Assembly: GCA_025350305.1 (NCBI GenBank)
Contig: JANXYC010000113.1
Coordinates: 1-33,045 of the forward strand
Direction of reading: 5' to 3'
Origin: Cyclobacteriaceae bacterium
GTDB taxonomy: Bacteria; Bacteroidota; Bacteroidia; Cytophagales; Cyclobacteriaceae
DNA length: 33,045 nucleotides
Under the pieces are notes generated by a model that saw only the letters and a list, made by a program, of their open reading frames with translations, made no database searches and was not told the DNA's origin. A program made the position numbers and the translations under genes. Below, one piece after another: positions 1,531-18,051 of the stretch. Numbering within the stretch: position 1 is the stretch's first letter; every line of letters starts with the position of its first letter.

Positions 1531-2016
1531 TTACGGAATTTTCTTCCACGGGGCCACCTCAAGGTTGAACTGCCGTTCATCTACCGGCAGGCACATTTGC
1601 TCATTGCAAGCCATGAACTCAACCTTGCCCCGTACAATAACGGCACCTTGATTAAGCTTAATCTTCTGTGAGAATGTAACGGCGCCCGAATACCATATAA
1701 TGCCCATCATAAGATTATCGTCATAGAATTTAACCGCTTCTCCTGTTTCTTCAACTTTTCCTACCCGTGTATAAGCCCCAATAGACTCAAAGGAGAACTG
1801 GGTGGGAAATGGACCTCCCTCCTCCATAAATTGCGAATACAGGTGCCACCCAGGAAGGATCTCGGCTTTAAATATCAACGTTGCTTCCGGGCCTGTCACA
1901 GGTCCGGATTTAAAATACCATTTCACTTGGTGAACGGGTTGCGCAATACAATAAGGCATTTGTATGCCAAGCTGAAAAATGAGAATTAAAAAAGACTTGG
2001 TAATTCCTTCTATCAT
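1531..2016 (-). CDS. Stand-alone DsbD N-terminal-domain-like protein (disulfide reductase/corrector domain)
   Basis: Signal peptide plus WHLYSQ...GGPFPTQFSF...VKFYDD...GKVEFMACNEQMCLPVDERQF, characteristic of the DsbD N-terminal family. Confidence 0.75.
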   Translation of the reverse strand: MIEGITKSFLILIFQLGIQMPYCIAQPVHQVKWYFKSGPVTGPEATLIFKAEILPGWHLYSQFMEEGGPFPTQFSFESIGAYTRVGKVEETGEAVKFYDDNLMMGIIWYSGAVTFSQKIKLNQGAVIVRGKVEFMACNEQMCLPVDERQFNLEVAPWKKIP

Positions 2017-3790: not shown

Positions 3791-4363
3791 GTGCGCTTCG
3801 TGAACCAGTTCCGTGGCTATACTGACCAGGAACTAATCGCCTTGCTCATCCAGGGAGACAAGCAAGCCTTTGCAATCCTTTATAAGGAGAATGCCTCAGC
3901 ATTGCTGAACTATGTCAGAAGGAGCATACCCGTCAAAGAAGATTGTGAAGAAATTGTTCAAGAGGTCTTTGAATCGCTTTGGATAAAACATGAAGGGCTT
4001 CATCATGTTACCGCCTTGCGGGCCTATCTTTTCAAGATGGTGAAGTACAAGATTGTGGATTACATCCGGCACAGCCTTGTAAAAAAGAAATATGAAGAGC
4101 ACTATGTCATATTCGAAACCGTGTATGAAAACTTCAGTGAGGCGATGAATGATCCTTCCGATTTTCAACTGCTGCTCGATAAAAGCATATCTGAATTGCC
4201 CGACCGATGCCAGGCCGCGTTTCGTTTGCGCCTCCACGATAACCTTCCTTACAAAGACATTGCTGAACGCATGCAGATCTCGACCAAGACCGTGGAAAAG
4301 CATATATCGGCTGCACTCCAGCATTTGCGAAGCGCCTATCAGAATACATATAAGGCAAGCTAA
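3791..4363 (+). CDS. ECF-type RNA polymerase sigma-70 factor (GTG start)
   Basis: Sigma2 region (FAILYKENASALLNYVRR...EEIVQEVFESLW) and sigma4 region (LPDRCQAAFRLRLHDNLPYKDIAERMQISTKTVEKHISAALQHLR). Confidence 0.9.
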   Translation: MRFVNQFRGYTDQELIALLIQGDKQAFAILYKENASALLNYVRRSIPVKEDCEEIVQEVFESLWIKHEGLHHVTALRAYLFKMVKYKIVDYIRHSLVKKKYEEHYVIFETVYENFSEAMNDPSDFQLLLDKSISELPDRCQAAFRLRLHDNLPYKDIAERMQISTKTVEKHISAALQHLRSAYQNTYKAS

Positions 4364-4582: not shown

Positions 4583-5557
4583 ATGGAAAAATCAAATTTT
4601 GACCGTCTTCTGGAAAGGTACATGGAGGACCAGGTCACTGCGGAAGAGAAAAACAAAATTGAAGCGTGGCTGGATTCCAATAAGGCAAAGAATGGAAGGC
4701 ATTTTATCTGGACAAAAGAAGACGAAGAGGAATTGTTCAAAAAAATCACAGGCCGCCTGGACACTGTGGAAGAAATTGTCGAATACCGTCCCAAGGAAGA
4801 TACGATACGCTCCATCCAAGTTAATCGTTGGCTCGCAATAGCAGCTACCCTCTTGTTACTCGTTGCAGTATCATATGTCGTATGGGATCTAATAGATAAC
4901 AGATCGACAACGCAACAAGTCGCGGCTATCAATGATATCGATAAAGTAATCCTGAATGATGGTACAATTGTTTGGCTGCACAAGGATAGTAAATTGATCT
5001 ACTTCGAGAATCAGGATAAGTCCGAACGGCATGCGGAACTGGTTGGCGAGGGGCTTTTCGAAGTAGCTAAAGATGCCAGCCGTCCGTTTATAATTGATTG
5101 TGGTGAAATCAAAGTGAAAGTATTAGGAACAAGTTTCAATTTAAAGACCGGCAAGGGGACCATTGAGTTAAAAGTGCTTACCGGTAAAGTCAATCTTTCA
5201 TCAGCTACTAATAAAGAGGGTATTGACGTGGAGCCTAATAATAAGGTGATCTACGCTGTTAAAGGTGATCTTGAAAAGGTATCTATGGATAAAACAGAGG
5301 TCAATACCCTAGCCATGCGTACAGAATACAATATGCAGTTCAGGAATGCCGCTATGGATCAGATCATTAATAAGATTGAAAGGAAATTTGACGTAAAGTT
5401 TAAAGTTGACAATAAGCAAGTAAATAAGTGCAAAATCACGGCTGACTTTACAGATCATTCACTGGAGAGCACCCTTCGAATGATTTCCGAGGTTTTGGAT
5501 TTTGAATATGAAATAAACGGCAGCACGGTTACCGTAACCGGGAGCGGATGTAAATGA
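4583..5557 (+). CDS. FecR-family anti-sigma factor
   Basis: N-terminal cytoplasmic domain, TM (WLAIAATLLLLVAVSYVVW), FecR domain (GEGLFEVAKDASRPFIIDCGEIKVKVLGTSFNLK). Confidence 0.92.
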   Translation: MEKSNFDRLLERYMEDQVTAEEKNKIEAWLDSNKAKNGRHFIWTKEDEEELFKKITGRLDTVEEIVEYRPKEDTIRSIQVNRWLAIAATLLLLVAVSYVVWDLIDNRSTTQQVAAINDIDKVILNDGTIVWLHKDSKLIYFENQDKSERHAELVGEGLFEVAKDASRPFIIDCGEIKVKVLGTSFNLKTGKGTIELKVLTGKVNLSSATNKEGIDVEPNNKVIYAVKGDLEKVSMDKTEVNTLAMRTEYNMQFRNAAMDQIINKIERKFDVKFKVDNKQVNKCKITADFTDHSLESTLRMISEVLDFEYEINGSTVTVTGSGCK

Positions 5558-5723: not shown

Positions 5724-8700
5724 TTGCCTTTTTTCGAATCAAGGAAACAAAACAAAACTGTTAAAAGTATGAAAAAATGGTTTACTGCTGAAATAAAATT
5801 CTGGAAAGTTATGAAGATCTGCGGAGTGCAATCGGCGTTAGCAATGATCCTGGTCGGAGTATCACTTGCCTACGACGGCAAGAGCCAGATGCTTGAAAAG
5901 AAGATCACCATCAATTTGGAGAATGTTACCCTTGAAGTTGCATTAAGGGAGATTGCGACAGAAGCCAAAGTGAAATTCGTTTATAGCAATGATCAGCTTG
6001 ATCTTAAGGAAAAGGTTTCAATTGATGCTGATCAGCAACCACTGGGAGAATTACTTGATGACCTGCTTACTCTCCGTCAGATAAAATACAAAGTGCATGA
6101 AAAGGAATCTGCGATAACGCTGCGAAGGGACGTACAGCGCGAAGGTGGTCAATCATTTCGTAGTAGGCCAGAGTCGAGGGCCATGCCTGAAACCATAACC
6201 GGAACCGTAACAGGCGGGGCCCAAGCGGAGCCTTTGGCTGGCGTGAATGTGATTATTAAAGGGACGACCGTCGGAACCACCACAGATGGCGATGGGAGGT
6301 TTGCGATTCAAGCAGGAGACAAAGACATTCTCGTGTTTTCATTCATCGGATACGTTTCTTTCGAGACTCAGGTGAGCGGTCGCAGTGTAATTGATGTTGT
6401 GTTGCAGGAGGATGCGAAGAATCTAAACGAAGTGGTTGTCAATGCCGGTTACTGGACGTTAAAAGAGAAAGAAAAAACGGGAAATATTTCGAGAATTACA
6501 TCCGAGGAGATTAAGGCTCAACCTGTTTCCAACTTCCTCCAGACAATGGCCGGCAGGATGGCGGGTGTTGTGGTTACTCAAGAGACAGGCCTTGCTGGCG
6601 GTGGAATCCAGGTACAGATCAGAGGACGTAATAGTATAAACAGCGGTAACGATCCTCTTTACATAGTTGACGGGATCCCCGTACTCTCCACTTCATTAAA
6701 GTCACCTTATTTCGGGTCGGCGTTAGGCAATGGAAATCCTTTAAGTACGCTAAACCCGAATGACATCGAAAGTATTGAAGTGCTGAAGGATGGCGCAGCG
6801 ACGGCAATCTATGGTTCAAGGGGCGCAAACGGAGTTATTCTGATAACAACAAAAAAAAGTGGAGAAGGGACCACCAAGATAGACGTCGGTGTGTCGTCGG
6901 GTTTCAGCCAGGTCAACCGCACTATGAATCTCTTGAACACGCGGGATTATCTGACTATGCGCAGAGAGGCATTTAAAAATGACAATAGAATACCATCCAC
7001 ATCGAATGCCGCCGACCTTTTACGATGGGACACTACTAGGTATACTGACTGGCAAAAACAGCTCATTGGTAATACAGCACATGTGACAAATTTCAATTTG
7101 AGTATCTCAGGCGGTGACAAGCATACGACCTTCCTTTTAAGCGTGGGTTTCTACAAAGAAAGCACAGTCTTCCCCGGAGACTTCGGTTACAAACGGGGCA
7201 CAAGTAATTTCAGCTTAAGGCACAAATCATCCAATGAACGTTTGCAGATATTATTTTCCGCGAATTACGCGCTGGAAGACAACAAGTTGTTTAATGGTGA
7301 TCTGACCAATCCAGCACTTTTGTTGGCGCCCAACGCTCCGGAAGGCTATCTGAACGGACAGATCAACTGGGGTCCGTTGTCAAGCTTTGGGTCCAACCCG
7401 TACGCAATTTTGTTAAACAGATACAATGTCAGAAGTAATAACCTGAGGACTAATGCCCATATCGATTACAAAATAATTAATGGCCTCCAGTTCAAAGCAA
7501 ATCTTGGCTACACAAGAATTCAGACAGAATCCTTTGCTGCGGCACCGGTTGCAGCGATAAACCCTGCATTCGGCGTAACTACCGGATCATCCAACTTCGG
7601 AAGTGGTTCTAACGAAACCTGGATCGTCGAACCGCAACTGGAGTACAAGAGGAATATTGGCGAGAGTTCGCTGACTTTTTTGGCTGGAGCGACCTTCCAG
7701 CAAAGCATGAGAAATTCTTCAACCCTTGCGGGAAGTGGCTACACTAACGATCAGTTATTGGATAATCTCCAGGCTGCGTCCTCCATCTTCGTTGTTGAAG
7801 CTTCAAACACCGAATATAAATACAATGCTGTATTTGGCAGACTTAGCTACGCGCTCAAGTCCAGATATATTTTTGATCTCATCGGCAGAAGGGACGGGTC
7901 GAGCCGCTTCGGACCTGACCGGCGCTTTGCCAATTTCGGGTCAGTGAGTTCGGCCTGGCTTTTCGGCAATGAGGTCTTCATCCGGGAAAATTTTCGATTC
8001 CTCAGTTACGGGAAACTTCGCGCAAGTTATGGCACGTCCGGAAATGATCAGATAGGAGACTACGGATACCTGGACACCTTTTCGGCTACCTCGTTTCCCT
8101 ACAAGGGAGTACCGGCGTTGTTGCCAACGCGGCTGGCAAATCCAAATTATTCCTGGGAAACAAATAGGAAAGCTGAAGTCGGTTTAGAACTTGGATTTCT
8201 TAACGACAGGATTCTTGTAACAACCAGCTATTACTTGAATAGATCGACTGATCAACTTGTAGGTATTCCCGTATCTGCCGTTACTGGTTTTAGCAGTGTC
8301 CAGGCTAACCTGGCGTCAACGGTGGAGAACAAGGGCCTTGAGATTGAGCTTTCGACTGTTAACGTCAAAACTGTCAATTTTTCCTGGTCCAGCAACATTA
8401 ACGTTTCGCTCCCACAGAACAAGCTGATTGAATTTAAGAACCTTGAGAGTTCTTCTTATGCCAACCGGTTTGTGGTGGGTCAATCGGTCAATATCGATAA
8501 GGTCTATCAGTACCTTGGGGTTGATCCTCAGGCTGGGATTCATAAATTCAAAGATGTTGACGGGGATCAGATCATAAGGTCCCCCTTTGATAACCAGACG
8601 ATAGTGAACCTTAGCCCTAGCCTGTATGGTGGTTTTAGCAATACTTTTCAGTATAAGAACTGGTCCATGAACCTTTTTTTCCAGTTCGTGCAGCAAAAGG

Positions 8701-9092
8701 GTCCCAACTATTTGGCAAGCTTTAATATGCCAGGGTTGCTCCGAAATCAACCTGAGGAGGTTATGGATCGGTGGCGAAACCCGGGCGACACGGCACCGAT
8801 CCAGAGGTTCGGAATGTCGGCAGGGCCAACATTCACCGCGTTTCAAACCAGTTTGCGTTCCGAAATCAATTATGACGACGCCTCGTACGTTAGACTAAAG
8901 AACCTCAATATCAGCTACCGGTTTCCAAAACAGTTGGTTCAAAAGATCAAACTAACTAGCAGCGAAATTTACCTGCAAGGTCAGAACCTTCTCACCGTTA
9001 CAAGTTACAAGGGACTCGACCCTGAAACGAAAAGCTTTATCAACCTTCCGCCGCTCAGGACAATAACCCTGGGACTGCGTTTCACATTTTAA
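5724..9092 (+). CDS. SusC/RagA-family TonB-linked outer membrane protein with STN signalling domain (true start probably 5769)
   Basis: STN domain (ITINLENVTLEVALREIATEAKVKFVYS), carboxypeptidase-like domain (ITGTVTGGAQAEPLAGVNVIIKGTTVGTTTDGDGRF), plug (GRNSINSGNDPLYIVDGIPV), C-terminal TITLGLRFTF. Confidence 0.95.
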   Translation: MPFFESRKQNKTVKSMKKWFTAEIKFWKVMKICGVQSALAMILVGVSLAYDGKSQMLEKKITINLENVTLEVALREIATEAKVKFVYSNDQLDLKEKVSIDADQQPLGELLDDLLTLRQIKYKVHEKESAITLRRDVQREGGQSFRSRPESRAMPETITGTVTGGAQAEPLAGVNVIIKGTTVGTTTDGDGRFAIQAGDKDILVFSFIGYVSFETQVSGRSVIDVVLQEDAKNLNEVVVNAGYWTLKEKEKTGNISRITSEEIKAQPVSNFLQTMAGRMAGVVVTQETGLAGGGIQVQIRGRNSINSGNDPLYIVDGIPVLSTSLKSPYFGSALGNGNPLSTLNPNDIESIEVLKDGAATAIYGSRGANGVILITTKKSGEGTTKIDVGVSSGFSQVNRTMNLLNTRDYLTMRREAFKNDNRIPSTSNAADLLRWDTTRYTDWQKQLIGNTAHVTNFNLSISGGDKHTTFLLSVGFYKESTVFPGDFGYKRGTSNFSLRHKSSNERLQILFSANYALEDNKLFNGDLTNPALLLAPNAPEGYLNGQINWGPLSSFGSNPYAILLNRYNVRSNNLRTNAHIDYKIINGLQFKANLGYTRIQTESFAAAPVAAINPAFGVTTGSSNFGSGSNETWIVEPQLEYKRNIGESSLTFLAGATFQQSMRNSSTLAGSGYTNDQLLDNLQAASSIFVVEASNTEYKYNAVFGRLSYALKSRYIFDLIGRRDGSSRFGPDRRFANFGSVSSAWLFGNEVFIRENFRFLSYGKLRASYGTSGNDQIGDYGYLDTFSATSFPYKGVPALLPTRLANPNYSWETNRKAEVGLELGFLNDRILVTTSYYLNRSTDQLVGIPVSAVTGFSSVQANLASTVENKGLEIELSTVNVKTVNFSWSSNINVSLPQNKLIEFKNLESSSYANRFVVGQSVNIDKVYQYLGVDPQAGIHKFKDVDGDQIIRSPFDNQTIVNLSPSLYGGFSNTFQYKNWSMNLFFQFVQQKGPNYLASFNMPGLLRNQPEEVMDRWRNPGDTAPIQRFGMSAGPTFTAFQTSLRSEINYDDASYVRLKNLNISYRFPKQLVQKIKLTSSEIYLQGQNLLTVTSYKGLDPETKSFINLPPLRTITLGLRFTF

Positions 9093-9101
9093 CAACACAA
9101 C

Positions 9102-10508
9102 ATGAAAAACACGAAATACTCTATGACCAAGATCGGCTTATTCTCAACACTACTCAGCGCGACACTCTTCATAACTACCTCTTGCGGAGACTTCTTGGTT
9201 TCAAAAATTCCGAACACGCAACTAGTCTCCCAGTCGGTCTTTGAAACAGACGCATCGGCTATTTCAGCAACGGTGGGAATGTATGAGCAAATGATGGAGA
9301 ATTACAATTCGGCATTTAACGGACAGCTAACCCTGTGTGCTGGACTTTCTTCAGATGAACTGCTGAATTCTGCGGGAAACCCCACGCTTGATGAGTTTTT
9401 CACTTGTTCGATAACCACGACCAATGATCAGATAAAACAGAACTTTTGGGGTGCACTTTACAAGTACGTCTATCAGGCTAACACGATTATAGAGGGAGTA
9501 TCCAGGAGCAAGGGATTGTCGAAATCTGTTTCCTCTCAAGTTGAGGCTGAGGCGAGGTTCATACGAGCATTTTCGCACTTTTACCTGGTTAATCTCTTTG
9601 GCTCGGTTCCTTATGTTTCGAATTCCGATTACCGCCAGAATTCGGTTGCCGTACAAACGTCCTCCGATAAAGTTTTCGATGGGATCATAAGTGACCTCGT
9701 TCTTGCGCAAACCCTTATCGCCGATGATTATCCTTCCGCTGACAGGTCAAGGCCCAACAAGGCTGTTGTCACGGCTTTTTTATCGCGTGTGTATCTCTAC
9801 AATAAAAACTGGGCAGCCGCCGAAATAGAAGCATCGAAGATAATAGGGAACAATGCTTATTCTCTTCAATCTGACCTTTTGAAAGTGTTTCTTTTCGATA
9901 GTCCTGAAACATTATGGCAGATGATGCCAGTGATCCCGGAACTGAATACTGCGGAGGGTAACCGATTTGCCCAGACTAGTGGGACGCCATCTTATGCGGA
10001 AATGTCGCCGTCGCTAGTTAATGCGTTTGAGGCTGGAGACCAGCGCTTTTTGAATTGGACAAATAGCTATTCAGAATCTGGACACTCTTACACGCTGCCT
10101 TTTAAATATAAAGTGAGAACATCTTCAGAAATCACGGAGTACTATCAGGTGATAAGGCTGGCCGAGGTTTACCTTATTCGGAGCGAAGCGCGAGCGAATC
10201 AAGGAAATCTTGTTAATGCGCTCACAGATCTGGATGCTGTCAGAGTGCGTGCGGGTTTAGTTCCGGTACAAACTACAAATCCGTCTATCACACAAGCAGA
10301 CCTTTTACTGAGGATTGAGCGAGAGCGCCGAATTGAGCTCTTCTGCGAGTGGGGACACAGATGGCTTGATGTTAAACGGACCAACCGGGCTGACGCTATT
10401 CTAGGACCGCTTAAGCCATCCTCATGGAAATCGACCGCCGTTCTATATCCAATACCGGCCTCGGAAATCTTGATCAACGGCAACCTGCAGCAAAACCCAG
10501 GTTATTGA
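9102..10508 (+). CDS. SusD/RagB-family nutrient-uptake outer membrane lipoprotein
   Basis: Lipobox-like LFITTSCGDFL, SusD C-terminal motifs (RLAEVYLIRSEARANQG, RIERERRIELFCEWGHRWLDVKRT). Confidence 0.93.
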   Translation: MKNTKYSMTKIGLFSTLLSATLFITTSCGDFLVSKIPNTQLVSQSVFETDASAISATVGMYEQMMENYNSAFNGQLTLCAGLSSDELLNSAGNPTLDEFFTCSITTTNDQIKQNFWGALYKYVYQANTIIEGVSRSKGLSKSVSSQVEAEARFIRAFSHFYLVNLFGSVPYVSNSDYRQNSVAVQTSSDKVFDGIISDLVLAQTLIADDYPSADRSRPNKAVVTAFLSRVYLYNKNWAAAEIEASKIIGNNAYSLQSDLLKVFLFDSPETLWQMMPVIPELNTAEGNRFAQTSGTPSYAEMSPSLVNAFEAGDQRFLNWTNSYSESGHSYTLPFKYKVRTSSEITEYYQVIRLAEVYLIRSEARANQGNLVNALTDLDAVRVRAGLVPVQTTNPSITQADLLLRIERERRIELFCEWGHRWLDVKRTNRADAILGPLKPSSWKSTAVLYPIPASEILINGNLQQNPGY

Positions 10509-10532: not shown

Positions 10533-11933
10533 ATGAGGACAAGTGTACTATTATCAATGGCGATGTTGATACAACTAGCGTCTTGGGCGCAGGGAGAGCG
10601 TGCGGCTTTGGAAAAAGATAAAAGAATGCCTGAGTTCAAACTGAAGAACCTGATGCATCATAAGAAGTCTGAATTTAACAATACAGATCTTTTAGGGAAA
10701 TGCACGATTATAGATTTCTGGACGACAGGGTGCCCGGCATGCATCAGCAGTTTTCGAAAGTTCGATGCCCTTCGCAGAAAGCTAGGCGATTCTATTGAAT
10801 TCATCCTTATTGGCAAGGACTTCCTCAACAAGCAAACCATAAATGCCGCCAAGATCACTTTTCAGAAGTACAAAGAAAAGTGGAAGTTCGATTTGCCCGT
10901 TGCCTTTGATGCTGAAAAGTTTGATCGGTTCGGAGTGCCCTTTGTGCCTTACTGCATTTGGATTGACCAAAATGGAATAATTCAGGAAATCACCACAACG
11001 ACCGATGTGACTGAATCGAATGTGAGATCGTTCGTCTCAGGGAAAGCTATAAAAATATCGCTGCAGGTTGATAAGGAGGTTGCCGGGCCGTCCATGCCTT
11101 TTGACTACGACAGGCCATTGCTAATAAATGGTAACGGTGGTTATGATTCGGCATTCCTTTTCCGCTCAGTTCTTTCCAGGTGGAACAAGGAGAGTCCGCC
11201 ATATCTGCAGCCCTTCATCACGAGCATGAACACCAATAGTAAAGGTGTTCCTTACTGGGCGGGCATCGAGAAGAACAGAGTCCAAATGAATGGCGTATCT
11301 ATTAAACAGCTGATTGAACTAGCTTACGGAGATACCGTTAATCACTCTCCCGGTTGGTTAGAAGGTAGAGACGAGGAGAGTATTGATTTCAATGCTCAAT
11401 CGTCGTACGGAGAATATTGGATGGAGCCTATACTCCAGGTTGCTGACACGTTGCCCTTTACGATTGATTGGGCGATGGGAAAGAATGCGTACTCGTATAG
11501 CCTGATCATCCCTGAACGAAAAGCATCGGCTTTGCTACTCCGGCGGGCAATGCAGGATGATGTTGAAAAATATTTCGGATACGACGTATCGGTGGAGGAA
11601 AGAACGATGCCGTGCTGGAATCTGTATGCAACTGTTTCCGCTCGTACGCTACTAAGAAGCAAAAGCGAAAGGACAATTAAGATAAACCGGCCTGCCGAAA
11701 TGTTATTGTCAAACGTGCCTGTTTACCAGTTAATACGGAGTATATATGAGTATAATACAAGTCAGCCACCCATCATCGATCAAACCGGCATTAGCTATAG
11801 AATTGATATAAACCTCAGAGTTCCTCTGATGGATTTTGACGAGGTGAGAAATGCCTTGGCAAAGAATGGTCTGAGGCTTGAGAAGGGAACGAGAACCATG
11901 AAAGTAATTGTAGTACGCGACAAGATTCAGTGA
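10533..11933 (+). CDS. TlpA-like thioredoxin-fold protein with C-terminal DUF3738-like region
   Basis: CTIIDFWTTGCPACISSFRKFDAL (CPAC active site), then NRVQMNGVSIKQLIELAYG... resembling DUF3738. Confidence 0.8.
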   Translation: MRTSVLLSMAMLIQLASWAQGERAALEKDKRMPEFKLKNLMHHKKSEFNNTDLLGKCTIIDFWTTGCPACISSFRKFDALRRKLGDSIEFILIGKDFLNKQTINAAKITFQKYKEKWKFDLPVAFDAEKFDRFGVPFVPYCIWIDQNGIIQEITTTTDVTESNVRSFVSGKAIKISLQVDKEVAGPSMPFDYDRPLLINGNGGYDSAFLFRSVLSRWNKESPPYLQPFITSMNTNSKGVPYWAGIEKNRVQMNGVSIKQLIELAYGDTVNHSPGWLEGRDEESIDFNAQSSYGEYWMEPILQVADTLPFTIDWAMGKNAYSYSLIIPERKASALLLRRAMQDDVEKYFGYDVSVEERTMPCWNLYATVSARTLLRSKSERTIKINRPAEMLLSNVPVYQLIRSIYEYNTSQPPIIDQTGISYRIDINLRVPLMDFDEVRNALAKNGLRLEKGTRTMKVIVVRDKIQ

Positions 11934-11936
11934 AGA

Positions 11937-13010
11937 TTATTTCAATGAGATGCGATACCTGGTTACGTAGTGGTCCTGCAGTACGACAAGAATCGAATCG
12001 TTGAAAGCAAAACTCTTTACCTTGAAACCATTGAGGTCTGCGATGTAGAAACTACAATGGTAGTGACCCAAGGTCAAATCGTAGACATCAAATACACTTG
12101 ACGATTGAAATCGACTCAAATCCTCGCCGTCTCCTCGCAGGGCTGAATGAACGATAAACCAGCTTTTGGATAAAAATCCCTTCTTGTTCACCATGACCGG
12201 CGGGGCCGCCATTGTGCGAATTCCTTCTGAAGAGATTGTTCCGACCTTAAGATGAGCCGTTGACACGGTGTCGATGGTTTTTAGCGTACGTATAACGTGT
12301 AAATTCGTATCCAGGTGCATCATCCTGTTCCTATAGAAATAGACAAACATTAACTGAGCGGAGTATGGATCATACAATAATTGACCATCGGTGCAAAGTA
12401 TGCCGTCTATTTGTTTCTCCAAAATATCTGCCTCTCCTTCCGTTGCGGAGTGACCTAGTAGCGTTTTCTTGAAGACAGCTTTGACCTTTGTCAAATTATT
12501 GGACTTCACTATTAGCGATGTCCTTGACAAAACTGAGCCAACGGAGAGAAAATTCGGTTCCTCGACGGCATGATATGTCATTCTCGGATCTTTCAGATAT
12601 CCAGACACAAAAGCTGGTGTTATGTTTTCGAAAGCTATGATTTCCTCGCCAACGACATTAACTTGAAGTGCACGCCGTGCGAGTCGGTCACTGGGAAACT
12701 GAAGTCTTATTGGGATCGAATCCTCGAGATTCTTTGATAGTGTCAACAAGTAAGACGGGGCCACCGAATTTCCGAAATAAATTCTCTCATCTGAGAGTCC
12801 GGCTACATAGTATGAATTGTACAGGAGATCGAACCGAATTTTGTCGCGCACCACACCTTGAGCGAACGTTCTTGTAAAGCCGCCTCCAAATTCGGGGCGA
12901 GTCTTAAGTTTTAAAACAAAAAAAAGTGCACTACCGAATAGCAAGATTCCGCCGACAATTAGTCCGACAACAAGCGTTTTCATGCTTAAAAAAATCCGGC
13001 AGTCGAACAA
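11937..13010 (-). CDS. Membrane-anchored hypothetical protein, possible beta-propeller-type fold
   Basis: N-terminal TM (LVVGLIVGGILLFGSALFFVL) then beta-rich extracytoplasmic region; fold call is inference only. Confidence 0.55.
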   Translation of the reverse strand: MFDCRIFLSMKTLVVGLIVGGILLFGSALFFVLKLKTRPEFGGGFTRTFAQGVVRDKIRFDLLYNSYYVAGLSDERIYFGNSVAPSYLLTLSKNLEDSIPIRLQFPSDRLARRALQVNVVGEEIIAFENITPAFVSGYLKDPRMTYHAVEEPNFLSVGSVLSRTSLIVKSNNLTKVKAVFKKTLLGHSATEGEADILEKQIDGILCTDGQLLYDPYSAQLMFVYFYRNRMMHLDTNLHVIRTLKTIDTVSTAHLKVGTISSEGIRTMAAPPVMVNKKGFLSKSWFIVHSALRGDGEDLSRFQSSSVFDVYDLTLGHYHCSFYIADLNGFKVKSFAFNDSILVVLQDHYVTRYRISLK

Positions 13011-13039
13011 TTATTCGCAGCTGCCGGATTCGCGGAAAA

Positions 13040-13270
13040 TTAGATAGGCTTGAACCTCGTAATGTTTCCGCACGTCGCCGTCTTCACCTGAAAGCTACAG
13101 GTTACGCCTGAGGTGAGTGTGCAGTCCGTCTGGGTAATACACGAGCTCGTGTTAAGCGGATCCACCATATAAACGGTGTCAAAGTCATCCGACTTCGGAT
13201 TGAACGAGAATGCGGCGGCAGCTGCAAATAAAATTGCAAGCAGTGGGAGAAATAATCTGACTTTTTTCAT
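13040..13270 (-). CDS. DUF6520-like small exported peptide with four cysteines
   Basis: 76 aa: MKKVRLFLPLLAILFAAAAAFSFNPKSDDFDTVYMVDPLNTSSCITQTDCTLTSGVTCSFQVKTATCGNITRFKPI. Confidence 0.65.
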   Translation of the reverse strand: MKKVRLFLPLLAILFAAAAAFSFNPKSDDFDTVYMVDPLNTSSCITQTDCTLTSGVTCSFQVKTATCGNITRFKPI

Positions 13271-13327
13271 GTTGATGTTATTTGAATTTTGTCCTACTCT
13301 GTTACAGGTTTTCGGAGTTCCCTGATC

Positions 13328-13795
13328 TTATTGCAATAAAATGTTTTTAATGGTGCTGGTCTTTTTATCTGGGTTATTGTATTGTAGAAAGGTTCCCAGG
13401 ATTCCAAGAATAACGAAGACTATGTTAAAGATCAGGTGATCTCTCCAGTTTAGTTGTTGCAACACACCGCCACATGAACAAGGAATATGCTCGCCGGAAT
13501 TCATGATCAACACTATGTACGTCGTGAACATTATCATGAGACAAAGGGAGGCTAGTAACCCTGGAAGCCTTGTTTTGGGAAACACCAGAGCTATTGCAAT
13601 GAGAACCTCTATCAGTGGTACCGCGATGGCAACTAATCCAGCTATATTCGCGAGGATTGGAGACTGTCCGATTTGAATTCGGAACTTTTGAAGATCCATT
13701 AATTTACTCACTCCCGCGTAAACAAAAAGAAGAATGAAGAAAAAGACGATGATTTCTACGATGATATGGCGTTTCATTCCGTTTGAAATATTCAT
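13328..13795 (-). CDS. MauE/DoxX-type redox-associated membrane protein
   Basis: Four hydrophobic segments, YAGVSKLMDLQKFRIQIGQSPIL near the N-terminus and a GEHIPCSCGGVLQQLNWRDHLIFN motif. Confidence 0.82.
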   Translation of the reverse strand: MNISNGMKRHIIVEIIVFFFILLFVYAGVSKLMDLQKFRIQIGQSPILANIAGLVAIAVPLIEVLIAIALVFPKTRLPGLLASLCLMIMFTTYIVLIMNSGEHIPCSCGGVLQQLNWRDHLIFNIVFVILGILGTFLQYNNPDKKTSTIKNILLQ

Positions 13796-13838: not shown

Positions 13839-14452
13839 TCAGTCCTTCTGAATCGAATGTTCAGATTTTCGCTTATCGCATGTTAAGTATCTCCTTTTTC
13901 TCTTTTTAAGGCGGCTAAGAGATTGGGGAGTAATGTTTAAATACGAAGCAATGCTTTCTTGCGGGATGATTTGTTCTATGTCCGGGTAAATATTGAGGAG
14001 AATCTCAAGTCGTGCCAACGCACTCAGTCGCTGAATATCCGATATCCTTGCCCTGCATTTCGCATAATGCCTGTTCATGATCATGTTGTACAGGTATGGT
14101 GCTTTTCAAAGAGTCGGTGCAGGCTCGCGTGACTGAGGCAAATTAGATCACTTTTCTCCATCAACTGTATCGTCTCAGTCGAGGGAGCCTGGTCATAGAA
14201 GCTTCCAGGGATGGTCATGATCTGACCCGGCTTCCAGAATGATTCAATGATTTTTTTTCCGTCTTGATGGCTGTACGACATGGCAAAGCCACTCTTGATG
14301 AAGTAAGCGTATTCCGCAATCCGTGGCGCCTCAAGCAAGACATGATTTTTTGGTAAGGAAAGAGATACCAACTCTTTTTCCAGAGAATCTTTAAAATCGT
14401 CAGACAAGGGATGGATCGCCACCAAGGATTGAAACAGGCCGGATGAACTCAT
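13839..14452 (-). pseudogene. Frameshifted Crp/Fnr-type (cyclic-nucleotide-binding) regulator, decayed copy
   Basis: ORFs 14081-14485 and 13839-14084 together align along the intact paralog at 14534-15112. A ~10-nt deletion near 14085-14105 (aagcaccata|cctgtacaac vs aagcaccgggaagctcatttcttgtatcac) breaks the frame. Confidence 0.85.
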
Positions 14453-14453
14453 A

Positions 14454-14519
14454 GGCAATATCTGTGAGCAGAGGTGATTGACCAATCTGAATACGAAATT
14501 TCTCTAACTCCATAAGCTT
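14454..14519 (-). pseudogene. Internal mauE fragment (22 codons)
   Basis: Reads KLMELEKFRIQIGQSPLLTDIA vs intact MauE KLMDLQKFRIQIGQSPILANIA (17/22 identical). Confidence 0.85.
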
Positions 14520-14533
14520 TTACTTATCGAATG

Positions 14534-15112
14534 TTAAGAGTTTTTCCTTTCTCTCTTGAGCCTACTTAAGGATTGAGGTGTAATGGATAGGTATGATGCT
14601 ATACTCTCCTGGGTGATGGCCTGCTCAATATCCGGAAACAATTTTAGCAATGTCTCAAACCGCTGTGATGCGCTAAGCAATTGAATGTCATGAATCCTTG
14701 CCCTACAGTGCAGGTAATGCTTGTTCATGATCTTGTGATACAAGAAATGAGCTTCCCGGTGCTTATCGAAGAGGCGCTGCACACCGGCGCGACTAACACA
14801 GAGTAGTTCACTTTTCTCTACGAGTTGGATGTATTCCATAGATAGGACCTGTTCAAAAAAACTATTGACAGAAGTCATAATTTGTCCGGATTTCCAAAAC
14901 GCTTCCGTCAGTTTTTTGCCTTCTCGAAAAGTATAGGACATTGCAAATCCATTTTCTATGAAGTAAACGAATTCCGCAATTCTAGGGGCCTCAAGCAAAA
15001 GGTAGTTTTTGGGGAGGGAAAGTGGGATCAATTCTTCCTCTAGCGACGCTTTAAAGTCCTCCGATATCGGGTGGATGGCTGACAGTACTTTAAATAGGGC
15101 ATCTGCATTCAT
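14534..15112 (-). CDS. Crp/Fnr-family transcriptional regulator
   Basis: cNMP-binding domain (LLLEAPRIAEFVYFIENGFAMSYTFREGKKLTEAFWKSGQIM) and C-terminal HTH (ITQESIASYLSITPQSLSRLKRE). Confidence 0.85.
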   Translation of the reverse strand: MNADALFKVLSAIHPISEDFKASLEEELIPLSLPKNYLLLEAPRIAEFVYFIENGFAMSYTFREGKKLTEAFWKSGQIMTSVNSFFEQVLSMEYIQLVEKSELLCVSRAGVQRLFDKHREAHFLYHKIMNKHYLHCRARIHDIQLLSASQRFETLLKLFPDIEQAITQESIASYLSITPQSLSRLKRERKNS

Positions 15113-15729: not shown

Positions 15730-18051
15730 TTGTCCTTGCTCCATCGCAATGAAAAGCACTACTTTCATCTTCTTTTTACTCGTCCGATGAAAGACCTTTT
15801 GTCCGCTGCCGCTCAATTCATAAACACAACCTCAGGCCACATTTTTCTTACGGGCAAGGCTGGCACGGGCAAGACTACATTTTTAAAGAACCTTGAAAAT
15901 CTCACACATAAATCACATATCGTCGTCGCGCCAACGGGTATCGCTGCGTTGAATGCCGGCGGCGTCACCATCCATTCACAGTTTTTATTGCCCCCGGTTA
16001 CATTTCTGCCTGATCGTTTTCTGCCCGATGACTTTACCGACGGCGGAAAATTCATTAACCAAAATACATTGGCGCGGAAGCATCCCCTGAACAGTGCCCG
16101 TAAGCAAGTACTCCGCTCAATTGATTTACTGGTAATTGACGAAGTGAGCATGTTACGGGCCGATCTGCTTGATGCCATCGACTATCGCATGAAGGCCGCC
16201 CGCGGAAATTTCCGCCAGAGCTTTGGTGGAGTGCAGGTACTCTTCATTGGCGACCTGTACCAGTTACCGCCCGTGGTAAAAAACGAAGCGTGGGAAACCC
16301 TCCGTCGCTATTACAAGAGCGCCTGGTTTTATGAGGCGAAGGTGTTACAAGATGATTCGCTGATCTATATTGAATTGGACAAAATCTTCCGGCAGCACGA
16401 TCCTGCGTTTATCCACATCCTTAACAACCTCCGCAATAACACCCTCACCCCGGAAGATATTGACGCACTCAACAAGCATTACAAAACGACCGACGAAATC
16501 AGTAACCTTCGCGAAGTGATCGCCCTCACCACGCACAACTACAAGGCTGACGAGCTTAACCAAAAAGAACTGCGTAACCTCACAACTCCGTCACATTTTT
16601 TTGACGCCCGTATCGAAAGTGATTTTCCAGAAAGTATGTATCCCGTACCGCTGCGAATAGAGCTCAAGGAAGGCGCGCAGATCATGTTCGTACGCAACGA
16701 CAACGAAAATAAAATGTATTTCAACGGGAAACTGGCCACGGTAAAAGAGATTTCCAATAGCGATGTTTGGGTTGAAATGGCCGGTACCCACACACACTAC
16801 CAACTGAAACGCGAGCGGTGGGAAAATAAGAAATACACGGTAAACGAAGTCACACGCGACCTTGAAGATGATGTGATTGGTGCGTTTGAACAATATCCCA
16901 TCAAACTAGCCTGGGCCATCACCGTTCATAAGAGCCAGGGCCTAACATTCGACCAGGCAATTATTGACGTGGGGCAGGCCTTTGCCGATGGACAAGTGTA
17001 TGTGGCGCTATCGCGGCTGCGAACCCTGGAAGGACTAACCCTGCGCACACGCATCCATTCATCTGTCATCAGCACCGACCAGCAGGTGGTGACTTTCGCA
17101 CAAAGCAACCACCGGCCTGATCAATTGGGCGAGGTGATGAAAGAGCGGCAACTACAATTCATCCGGCAACTGCTTAACAAAACCTTCGACTTCACTATAC
17201 TCATTAAAGACATCCGCTACGTTCAAAAAGAACAAGCCGCAGAAGGTTTTACTGAAGCTACTATGAAACCCGTGCTTGAACAAATTGCAGCAGCGCTGGA
17301 AGCCGAGCACACCAACACCGAAAAGTTCAGACAGCAATTGACAGTCTTGCTTAACACCAACGACTCAGCACAGTTGGTGGAGCGGATCCGCAAAGGAAGC
17401 GCCTACTACAAAGCCCACCTTATTCAAAATATAAAGACCCTCATACACCACCTTGAAGCCATGCGGCAACGCAAGCGCGTAAAAACGTACGTGAACCAAC
17501 TCACTGAACTCGACCAGGCGATGACCAAAAAATGCGAAGAGGTGGACAAGGCCGCCTTTCTCACGGAAGGTATTTTGAACGGTCACGAAAAATTTGAGTT
17601 CAGCACCCTCACCCGGCAACGAGCAGAAGAGCGTAGCGCACTGCTCGCCGAAATCCGCAAAAAAGTGGAGACAGAAAAGCCACCCGCCCGCAAACGGAAA
17701 CCGCGCAAGGAGCGCCGGTCTGCCGACAGCCTTGGAAAATCCAAAAGTCCAGACGACCGCAGCACATACGATATCACGTTAGACCTCCTCAACAGCGGTA
17801 TGACTGCCGGGCAGATTGCCAGGGAACGCGGCCTTGTCACTGGCACCATCGAAGTTCACCTCGCCAAGGCCGTGGAGACCGGACGGGTGAGCATTTTCAA
17901 ATTTATGACCGAAGAGTCCGTCATGGAGATTATCAACGCCCGTCGCCAACTTCCCGAAGGTGCTACTTCAAAAGAACTGTATGACAGGTTGAATGGAAAA
18001 TTTGGCTACGGTCAATTACGCGCTGCCGTGGCCTATTCAAAGATAAGTTGA
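15730..18051 (+). CDS. PIF1-like ATP-dependent helicase with C-terminal HTH_40-like domain (likely start 15787)
   Basis: Walker A GKAGTGKTTFLKNL, IDLLVIDEVSML, GVQVLFIGDLYQLPPV, AWAITVHKSQGLTFDQAIIDVG; C-terminal STYDITLDLLNSGMTAGQIARERGLVTGTIEVHLAKAVETG. Confidence 0.88.
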   Translation: MSLLHRNEKHYFHLLFTRPMKDLLSAAAQFINTTSGHIFLTGKAGTGKTTFLKNLENLTHKSHIVVAPTGIAALNAGGVTIHSQFLLPPVTFLPDRFLPDDFTDGGKFINQNTLARKHPLNSARKQVLRSIDLLVIDEVSMLRADLLDAIDYRMKAARGNFRQSFGGVQVLFIGDLYQLPPVVKNEAWETLRRYYKSAWFYEAKVLQDDSLIYIELDKIFRQHDPAFIHILNNLRNNTLTPEDIDALNKHYKTTDEISNLREVIALTTHNYKADELNQKELRNLTTPSHFFDARIESDFPESMYPVPLRIELKEGAQIMFVRNDNENKMYFNGKLATVKEISNSDVWVEMAGTHTHYQLKRERWENKKYTVNEVTRDLEDDVIGAFEQYPIKLAWAITVHKSQGLTFDQAIIDVGQAFADGQVYVALSRLRTLEGLTLRTRIHSSVISTDQQVVTFAQSNHRPDQLGEVMKERQLQFIRQLLNKTFDFTILIKDIRYVQKEQAAEGFTEATMKPVLEQIAAALEAEHTNTEKFRQQLTVLLNTNDSAQLVERIRKGSAYYKAHLIQNIKTLIHHLEAMRQRKRVKTYVNQLTELDQAMTKKCEEVDKAAFLTEGILNGHEKFEFSTLTRQRAEERSALLAEIRKKVETEKPPARKRKPRKERRSADSLGKSKSPDDRSTYDITLDLLNSGMTAGQIARERGLVTGTIEVHLAKAVETGRVSIFKFMTEESVMEIINARRQLPEGATSKELYDRLNGKFGYGQLRAAVAYSKIS

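Follow-up and report, generated by a model that had tools for sequence, protein, structure and literature searches.

A conserved gene set in Bacteroidota joins MauE and a DUF6520 cysteine peptide to a facing SusCD operon: a candidate self-peptide uptake system

Background

In the maturation of methylamine dehydrogenase, MauE, a DoxX-like protein, and MauD act on MauA, its small subunit. The known role of SusCD complexes is to import nutrients from outside the cell. RagAB, which is of the SusCD type, is described as implicated in protein uptake (PMC11817032). Bufferin-type precursors have been described with Sec signals (PMC12452194), and candidate RiPP clusters proposed by decRiPPter in Streptomyces place MauE, once together with MauD, beside a predicted Cys-rich precursor (PMC7794033). 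There these proteins were suggested to modify the peptide, and MauE was speculated to form disulfides in a small subunit (PMC7794033).

Here we present a conserved and apparently undescribed gene set, found in many Bacteroidota, in which MauE and a DUF6520 cysteine peptide face a SusCD operon. The set shares with methylamine dehydrogenase maturation a MauE gene beside a small exported polypeptide with several cysteines, a thioredoxin-fold protein and a propeller, but it differs in having no MauA or MauB match (a weak negative), no conserved Trp, a SusCD and peptidase partner, and a propeller that comes from another family and is dispensable. With bufferins and other MNIO peptides accompanied by DoxX it has in common a Cys peptide that carries a Sec signal and is encoded next to a small membrane protein; it differs in its even, disulfide-like Cys counts, in its SusCD partner and in lacking an MNIO gene (PF05114 was missing from 11 of the 12 genomes examined that bear the system, that of the window among them, while control genomes matched). 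The Streptomyces clusters belong to another phylum, have precursors with at least 8 Cys, and no SusCD, propeller or peptidase is described for them. The SusC/SusD pair is common to RagAB and other SusCD transporters, whereas here the locus also encodes a peptide that is a candidate ligand, together with the genes for its maturation.

The action of MauE on a Cys peptide thus appears to have a precedent, and its pairing with SusCD none in the literature searched. As far as that search reached, with few subscription papers in it, no kind of SusCD locus has been described that encodes an exported peptide along with the genes to mature it. DUF6520 was not mentioned in the literature searched. Queries for MauE with SusD, Flavobacterium or TonB returned apparently only citations of authors named Maue, and the literature search yielded no paper on MauE and DoxX together.

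Organization of the locus

The window, by which we mean the whole 33,045-nt stretch of DNA that was analysed, had been read in an initial annotation as a plus-strand SusC/SusD/TlpA operon converging on a minus-strand set for a MauE-type membrane protein, a 76-aa exported peptide with four cysteines and an anchored protein, with a stand-alone DsbD_N-like gene about 8.5 kb from the TlpA-like gene. All of these parts were found in place:

1531..2016, minus strand: stand-alone DsbD_N (DsbD alpha)-like domain with a conserved C-x4-C pair (PF11412, E 1e-8)
3791..4363, plus strand: ECF-type sigma factor (PF08281, E 5.2e-13; PF04542, E 1.9e-8)
4583..5557, plus strand: FecR-type anti-sigma protein (PF16344, E 5.7e-17; PF04773, E 3.4e-16)
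5724..9092 (first ATG 5769), plus strand: SusC TonB-dependent transporter (TIGR04056, E 1.3e-226) with an N-terminal STN-like signalling domain (E 1.1e-5, under the Pfam cut-off)
9102..10508, plus strand: SusD-like surface lipoprotein, the proposed peptide receptor (PF14322, E 3.2e-27; PF07980, E 4.9e-26)
10533..11933, plus strand: TlpA/Redoxin-like protein with a CPAC motif (PF08534, Redoxin/AhpC-TSA, E 1.4e-8) and a C-terminal DUF3738 (PF12543, E 3.5e-5); last gene of the SusCD operon
11937..12983, minus strand: TM-anchored beta-propeller of 348 aa, undescribed family (AlphaFold2 model; propeller matches in the PDB)
12992..13031, minus strand: hairpin and T-run directly 3' of the peptide gene, terminator- or attenuator-like (-21.9 kcal/mol, z -4.2)
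13040..13270, minus strand: DUF6520 peptide, 76 aa, with a hydrophobic Sec signal and Cys 44, 50, 58 and 67, the proposed module product (PF20130, E 4.4e-8)
13328..13795, minus strand: MauE membrane protein with a PCSCGG motif, proposed to carry out redox maturation of the peptide (PF07291, E 4.8e-34)
13839..14485, minus strand: Crp/Fnr paralogue, apparently frameshifted (two overlapping ORFs with cNMP and HTH halves)
14534..15112, minus strand: intact Crp/Fnr-type regulator upstream of MauE (cNMP_binding, E 2.5e-4; HTH_Crp_2, E 0.002; both under the Pfam cut-offs)

Profile matches place SusC and SusD in adjacent genes. The window MauE scores 117.9 bits against a PF07291 cut-off of 27, and the peptide 33.8 bits against the curated PF20130 cut-off of 25.4, so that both belong to their families. 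The DUF3738 at the end of the TlpA-like protein (10533-11933) is of unknown function and had been missed earlier. Because the window genome holds only 6 SusD genes in 4.2 Mb and a single DUF6520 peptide, and this convergent arrangement is met again across Bacteroidota, the set is no chance neighbourhood.

Conservation across Bacteroidota

PF20130 (DUF6520) had matches in 35 of 393 Bacteroidota genomes, and a profile of 54 related peptides matched 24 of 297; a genome of the same genus as the window lacks the system, which is widespread but patchy. The scan alignment was the closer set, A2, as alignment A1 had no sufficiently conserved stretch. Among the loci listed MauE adjoins the DUF6520 peptide, with the exception of two weak hits (L017, L025) that look spurious by frame or composition.

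Two samples of MauE loci were compared. The first comprised 80 named loci fetched with MauE as query; the second comprised 60 loci picked by E-value from a phylum-wide PF07291 survey, in which 58 MauE genes were counted. Because both favour close relatives of the window MauE, the following fractions describe this MauE branch and not all MauE: in the 80-locus sample the peptide accompanies 73 and the propeller 70 of the 75 MauE genes having enough downstream sequence, and a convergent SusD lies at 63 of the 73 peptide-bearing genes; in the survey sample 36 of 58 MauE genes have a DUF6520-like peptide, and each of these 36 lies opposite a convergent SusD operon, against 3 of the 22 peptide-less genes, which come from two loci (L180, L217) and one of which has a peptide-like frame. 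The co-occurrence that the initial annotation had set as a check is therefore strong, with SusCD as a regular partner. MauE genes without the peptide (for example L168, L184 and L197) belong, in those read out, to another branch, which is marked by a CGCF motif and lies in unrelated operons, whereas the PCSCGG motif is conserved among peptide-linked MauE.

About a dozen peptide-MauE units, in Chitinophaga and others, have no nearby SusD. The Chitinophaga loci L115-L118, L120 and L126 carry MauE, the propeller and a strongly conserved peptide, mostly with no SusD in the stretch retrieved; a SusD-like fragment lies upstream in L120. In L080 and L083 two complete peptide units stand back to back, one facing a TlpA-type and the other an M16-type SusCD operon.

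The most frequent gene orders are a MauE-propeller fusion followed by the peptide (59), MauE, propeller, peptide (24) and MauE, peptide (15), and the fusion is often seen in Flavobacteriaceae. The order of the window (MauE, peptide, propeller) occurs at 6 loci, plus 2 with a further peptide. From these orders, and the 15 units without a propeller in particular, MauE and the peptide emerge as the minimal unit. Genes upstream of MauE include AraC or Crp regulators, often in this position.

The peptide and the propeller

PF20130 matches 50 of the 54 related peptides at E <= 0.001. In the alignment of all 54, C44, C50, C58 and C67 of the window peptide are the four conserved Cys columns, and conservation is low outside the peptide start and the cysteines. 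The Cys count is even in 122 of 125 distinct peptides (99 with four, 19 with two, 4 with six) and odd in 3, a pattern compatible with disulfides without being proof of them. By operon class, there are four Cys in 59 of 60 S9-type peptides and two in 9 of 9 peptides of the SusD-direct and TlpA-after-SusC kind. AlphaFold2 gave no confident fold for the mature peptide and nothing confident beyond the signal helix.

Most loci have one peptide copy, with a range of 1-4; the four copies are in L110 (10527-13584), from Pedobacter sp. ok626. A terminator-like hairpin follows 11 of 20 operon-internal peptides, compared with 0 of 109 gaps between MauE or propeller and peptide; the generic hairpin scan skipped the 12992..13031 element of the window because of its longer loop. 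Such hairpins are consistent with a higher peptide dose, short of demonstrating it, and together with the tandem copies they suggest an abundant product.

The anchored protein had been annotated as beta-rich, with 357 aa, and a propeller fold was among the points to check. The open frame of that length reaches 13010, and 348 aa are counted from the ATG at 12983. AlphaFold2, run with 61 relatives, predicts a single TM helix and then an all-beta propeller (pLDDT 91.3, pTM 0.86), so that this check came out in favour of the initial reading. Foldseek returned many propeller matches at about 10% identity, with DUF4221 (3s9j) at the top and no MauB structure among the 50 matches listed. Neither Pfam nor NCBIfam gave a convincing match for any of the 61 relatives, the family matches no MauB model, a search for sequence relatives in the PDB gave only chance matches at E about 0.05, and no relatives were found in viral contigs. 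The 348-aa protein represents an undescribed propeller family.

An exchangeable last gene in the SusCD operon

The thioredoxin-fold, TlpA-like gene closes the SusCD operon of the window, as annotated. In related loci this last gene is interchangeable, being TlpA-like or a peptidase from one of four unrelated families. By Pfam it is TlpA-like in the window and L078, an S9 prolyl oligopeptidase in L084, an M16 peptidase in L083, a metzincin (DUF4953/DUF5117) in L162 and an S8 subtilase in L086 and L196, adjoining a TlpA-like gene in L196. By classes assigned from gene length and labels, with the length classes motif-checked in part, the 125 peptides divide into 60 S9-like, 26 TlpA, 9 TlpA beyond SusC, 7 SusD-direct, 6 metzincin-like, 3 M16-like and 14 without SusD. 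TlpA as part of the module thus holds to the extent that it recurs in related loci; it is not universal, and its slot is more often occupied by a peptidase. The last-gene products have an N-terminal hydrophobic signal in 75 of 81 cases and usually no lipobox. The exchange of unrelated peptidases and a thiol protein for one another is the main reason to see a peptide as what SusCD would import.

The stand-alone DsbD_N gene of the window lies outside the SusC operon, since it is on the opposite strand from SusC. Its proposed link to the set was borne out by homologues within or next to eight related loci (L078, L080, L081, L083, L087, L123, L230 and L232). Judged by open-frame length, S9-type genomes showed only full-length DsbD, and the short stand-alone form is present in most TlpA-type genomes; in several of the latter it adjoins full-length DsbD or lies at another site, with no linkage to the peptide locus. 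The association is real for some loci without being general, and the DsbD_N gene is probably an accessory of the TlpA-type form.

Co-variation of the peptide with its partners

Across 52 S9-type loci, of which only 18 could be scored for the planned regulator-divergence control, distances between mature peptides correlate with those of S9 (0.41), SusD (0.40), the propeller (0.32) and MauE (0.26). Beyond MauE and the propeller, the partial r is 0.12 for SusD (permutation p 0.012) and 0.13 for S9 (p 0.006); in partial correlation mature-peptide divergence does not follow the propeller. For the signal peptide alone, r is 0.095 against SusD (p 0.048) and 0.125 against the propeller (p 0.021). The co-variation of peptide and SusD is weak and confounded with locus history, of which SusD could partly be the better clock. 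At 70-80% propeller identity, mature peptides are on average 53% identical beside SusD (12 pairs) versus 80% with no SusD nearby (13 pairs), a difference only suggestive of faster divergence beside SusD, as the SusD-less pairs are largely Chitinophaga.

Discussion

We propose that these loci encode a disulfide peptide which the cell makes itself, matures through MauE, recognises and imports through its own SusCD, and then cleaves or reduces; we rate this reading as plausible, at somewhat under an even chance. From its sequence, the DUF6520 peptide would be made with a Sec signal and exported. Periplasmic MauE, through its CxC site and often with the membrane-anchored propeller, would oxidise paired Cys and aid folding, a step suggested by MauE biology and by the minimal MauE-peptide unit. 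The mature peptide would exit the periplasm by some route, for which no outer-membrane gene was found. The facing SusC/SusD would recognise the peptide of its own locus, either bare or carrying a cargo (a metal, for example), for TonB-driven import; in the window the STN-like domain, FecR and the sigma factor could convert binding into transcription. A periplasmic last-gene product would end the cycle, a peptidase cutting the peptide in most loci and, in the window, the TlpA protein, perhaps with the DsbD alpha-like domain feeding it, reducing the peptide. This last step is proposed because the peptidase and TlpA genes are interchangeable and all act on peptides or thiols. The initial annotation had left SusCD as an export or uptake partner: export is without support, and uptake fits better, although it is maybe not universal given the units with no nearby SusD.

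The peptide may be a pheromone or other signal or a scavenging carrier, and the data fit either. The wider claim is tentative, possible rather than probable: across the phylum, a disulfide-bonded ribosomal peptide would be released and specifically retrieved by co-encoded SusCD, as pheromone or scavenging carrier, and the cycle would be ended by periplasmic peptidases that can stand in for one another or by a thioredoxin-like/DsbD alpha pair. If true, it would represent a new use of SusCD, the retrieval of the cell's own peptide as signal or carrier, by a set whose conservation extends from Flavobacterium to Chitinophagales and Cytophagales and whose partners include several unrelated peptidases. 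It would give DUF6520, the new propeller family and one MauE branch a joint testable function, in culturable named species, for example of Flavobacterium or Pedobacter.

It is unlikely, yet deserves weight, that the peptide instead remains within the periplasm or envelope, where it partners or inhibits SusCD or the peptidase, MauE only folding it, with neither secretion nor re-import. A Sec signal alone delivers to the periplasm, the exit gene was looked for and not found, small disulfide proteins encoded next to peptidases often act as inhibitors, and mature-peptide divergence tracks S9 as well as SusD. However, one peptide family occurs with four unrelated peptidase families and with TlpA, where there is no peptidase to inhibit, and units occur with no SusCD or peptidase nearby. 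An antagonistic toxin or bacteriocin, with SusCD and the peptidase serving the producer to feed on or dispose of it, would suit the fast divergence, the tandem copies and a distribution so patchy that even a congener lacks the system, but we consider it improbable: no dedicated exporter, recognised immunity gene or match in the PADLOC defence library was found, and a toxin imported by its producer beside its own receptor would be unusual. Very improbable indeed is a minimal mau-like redox enzyme with the peptide as small quinone-bearing subunit and the propeller as large subunit: MauE, a TlpA-like protein, a small Cys peptide and a propeller do stand together in the window, but MauA (PF02975) and MauB (PF06433) have no match in its genome (a weak negative, control genomes being likewise without match), the conserved Trp that a mau small subunit carries for its TTQ cofactor is missing from 72 of 125 mature peptides, in which no tryptophan-derived cofactor is therefore possible, and the propeller has DUF4221 as its nearest fold and is dispensable, being absent from 15 MauE-peptide units.

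What remains of the minimal mau-like maturation module first suggested is its core, MauE and a Cys peptide as a conserved minimal unit with a predicted propeller; as a strict mau system it is not supported, on the same evidence.

Three further features of the window were noted. The Crp/Fnr gene split at 13839-14485, beside its intact paralogue, may be a real frameshift or an assembly error, which the sequence does not distinguish. A second FecR-like frame lies near the left end at 386-1114, with no sigma factor identified beside it. Adjoining the regulators, at 15730-18051, is a PIF1-like helicase with a C-terminal HTH_40 domain.
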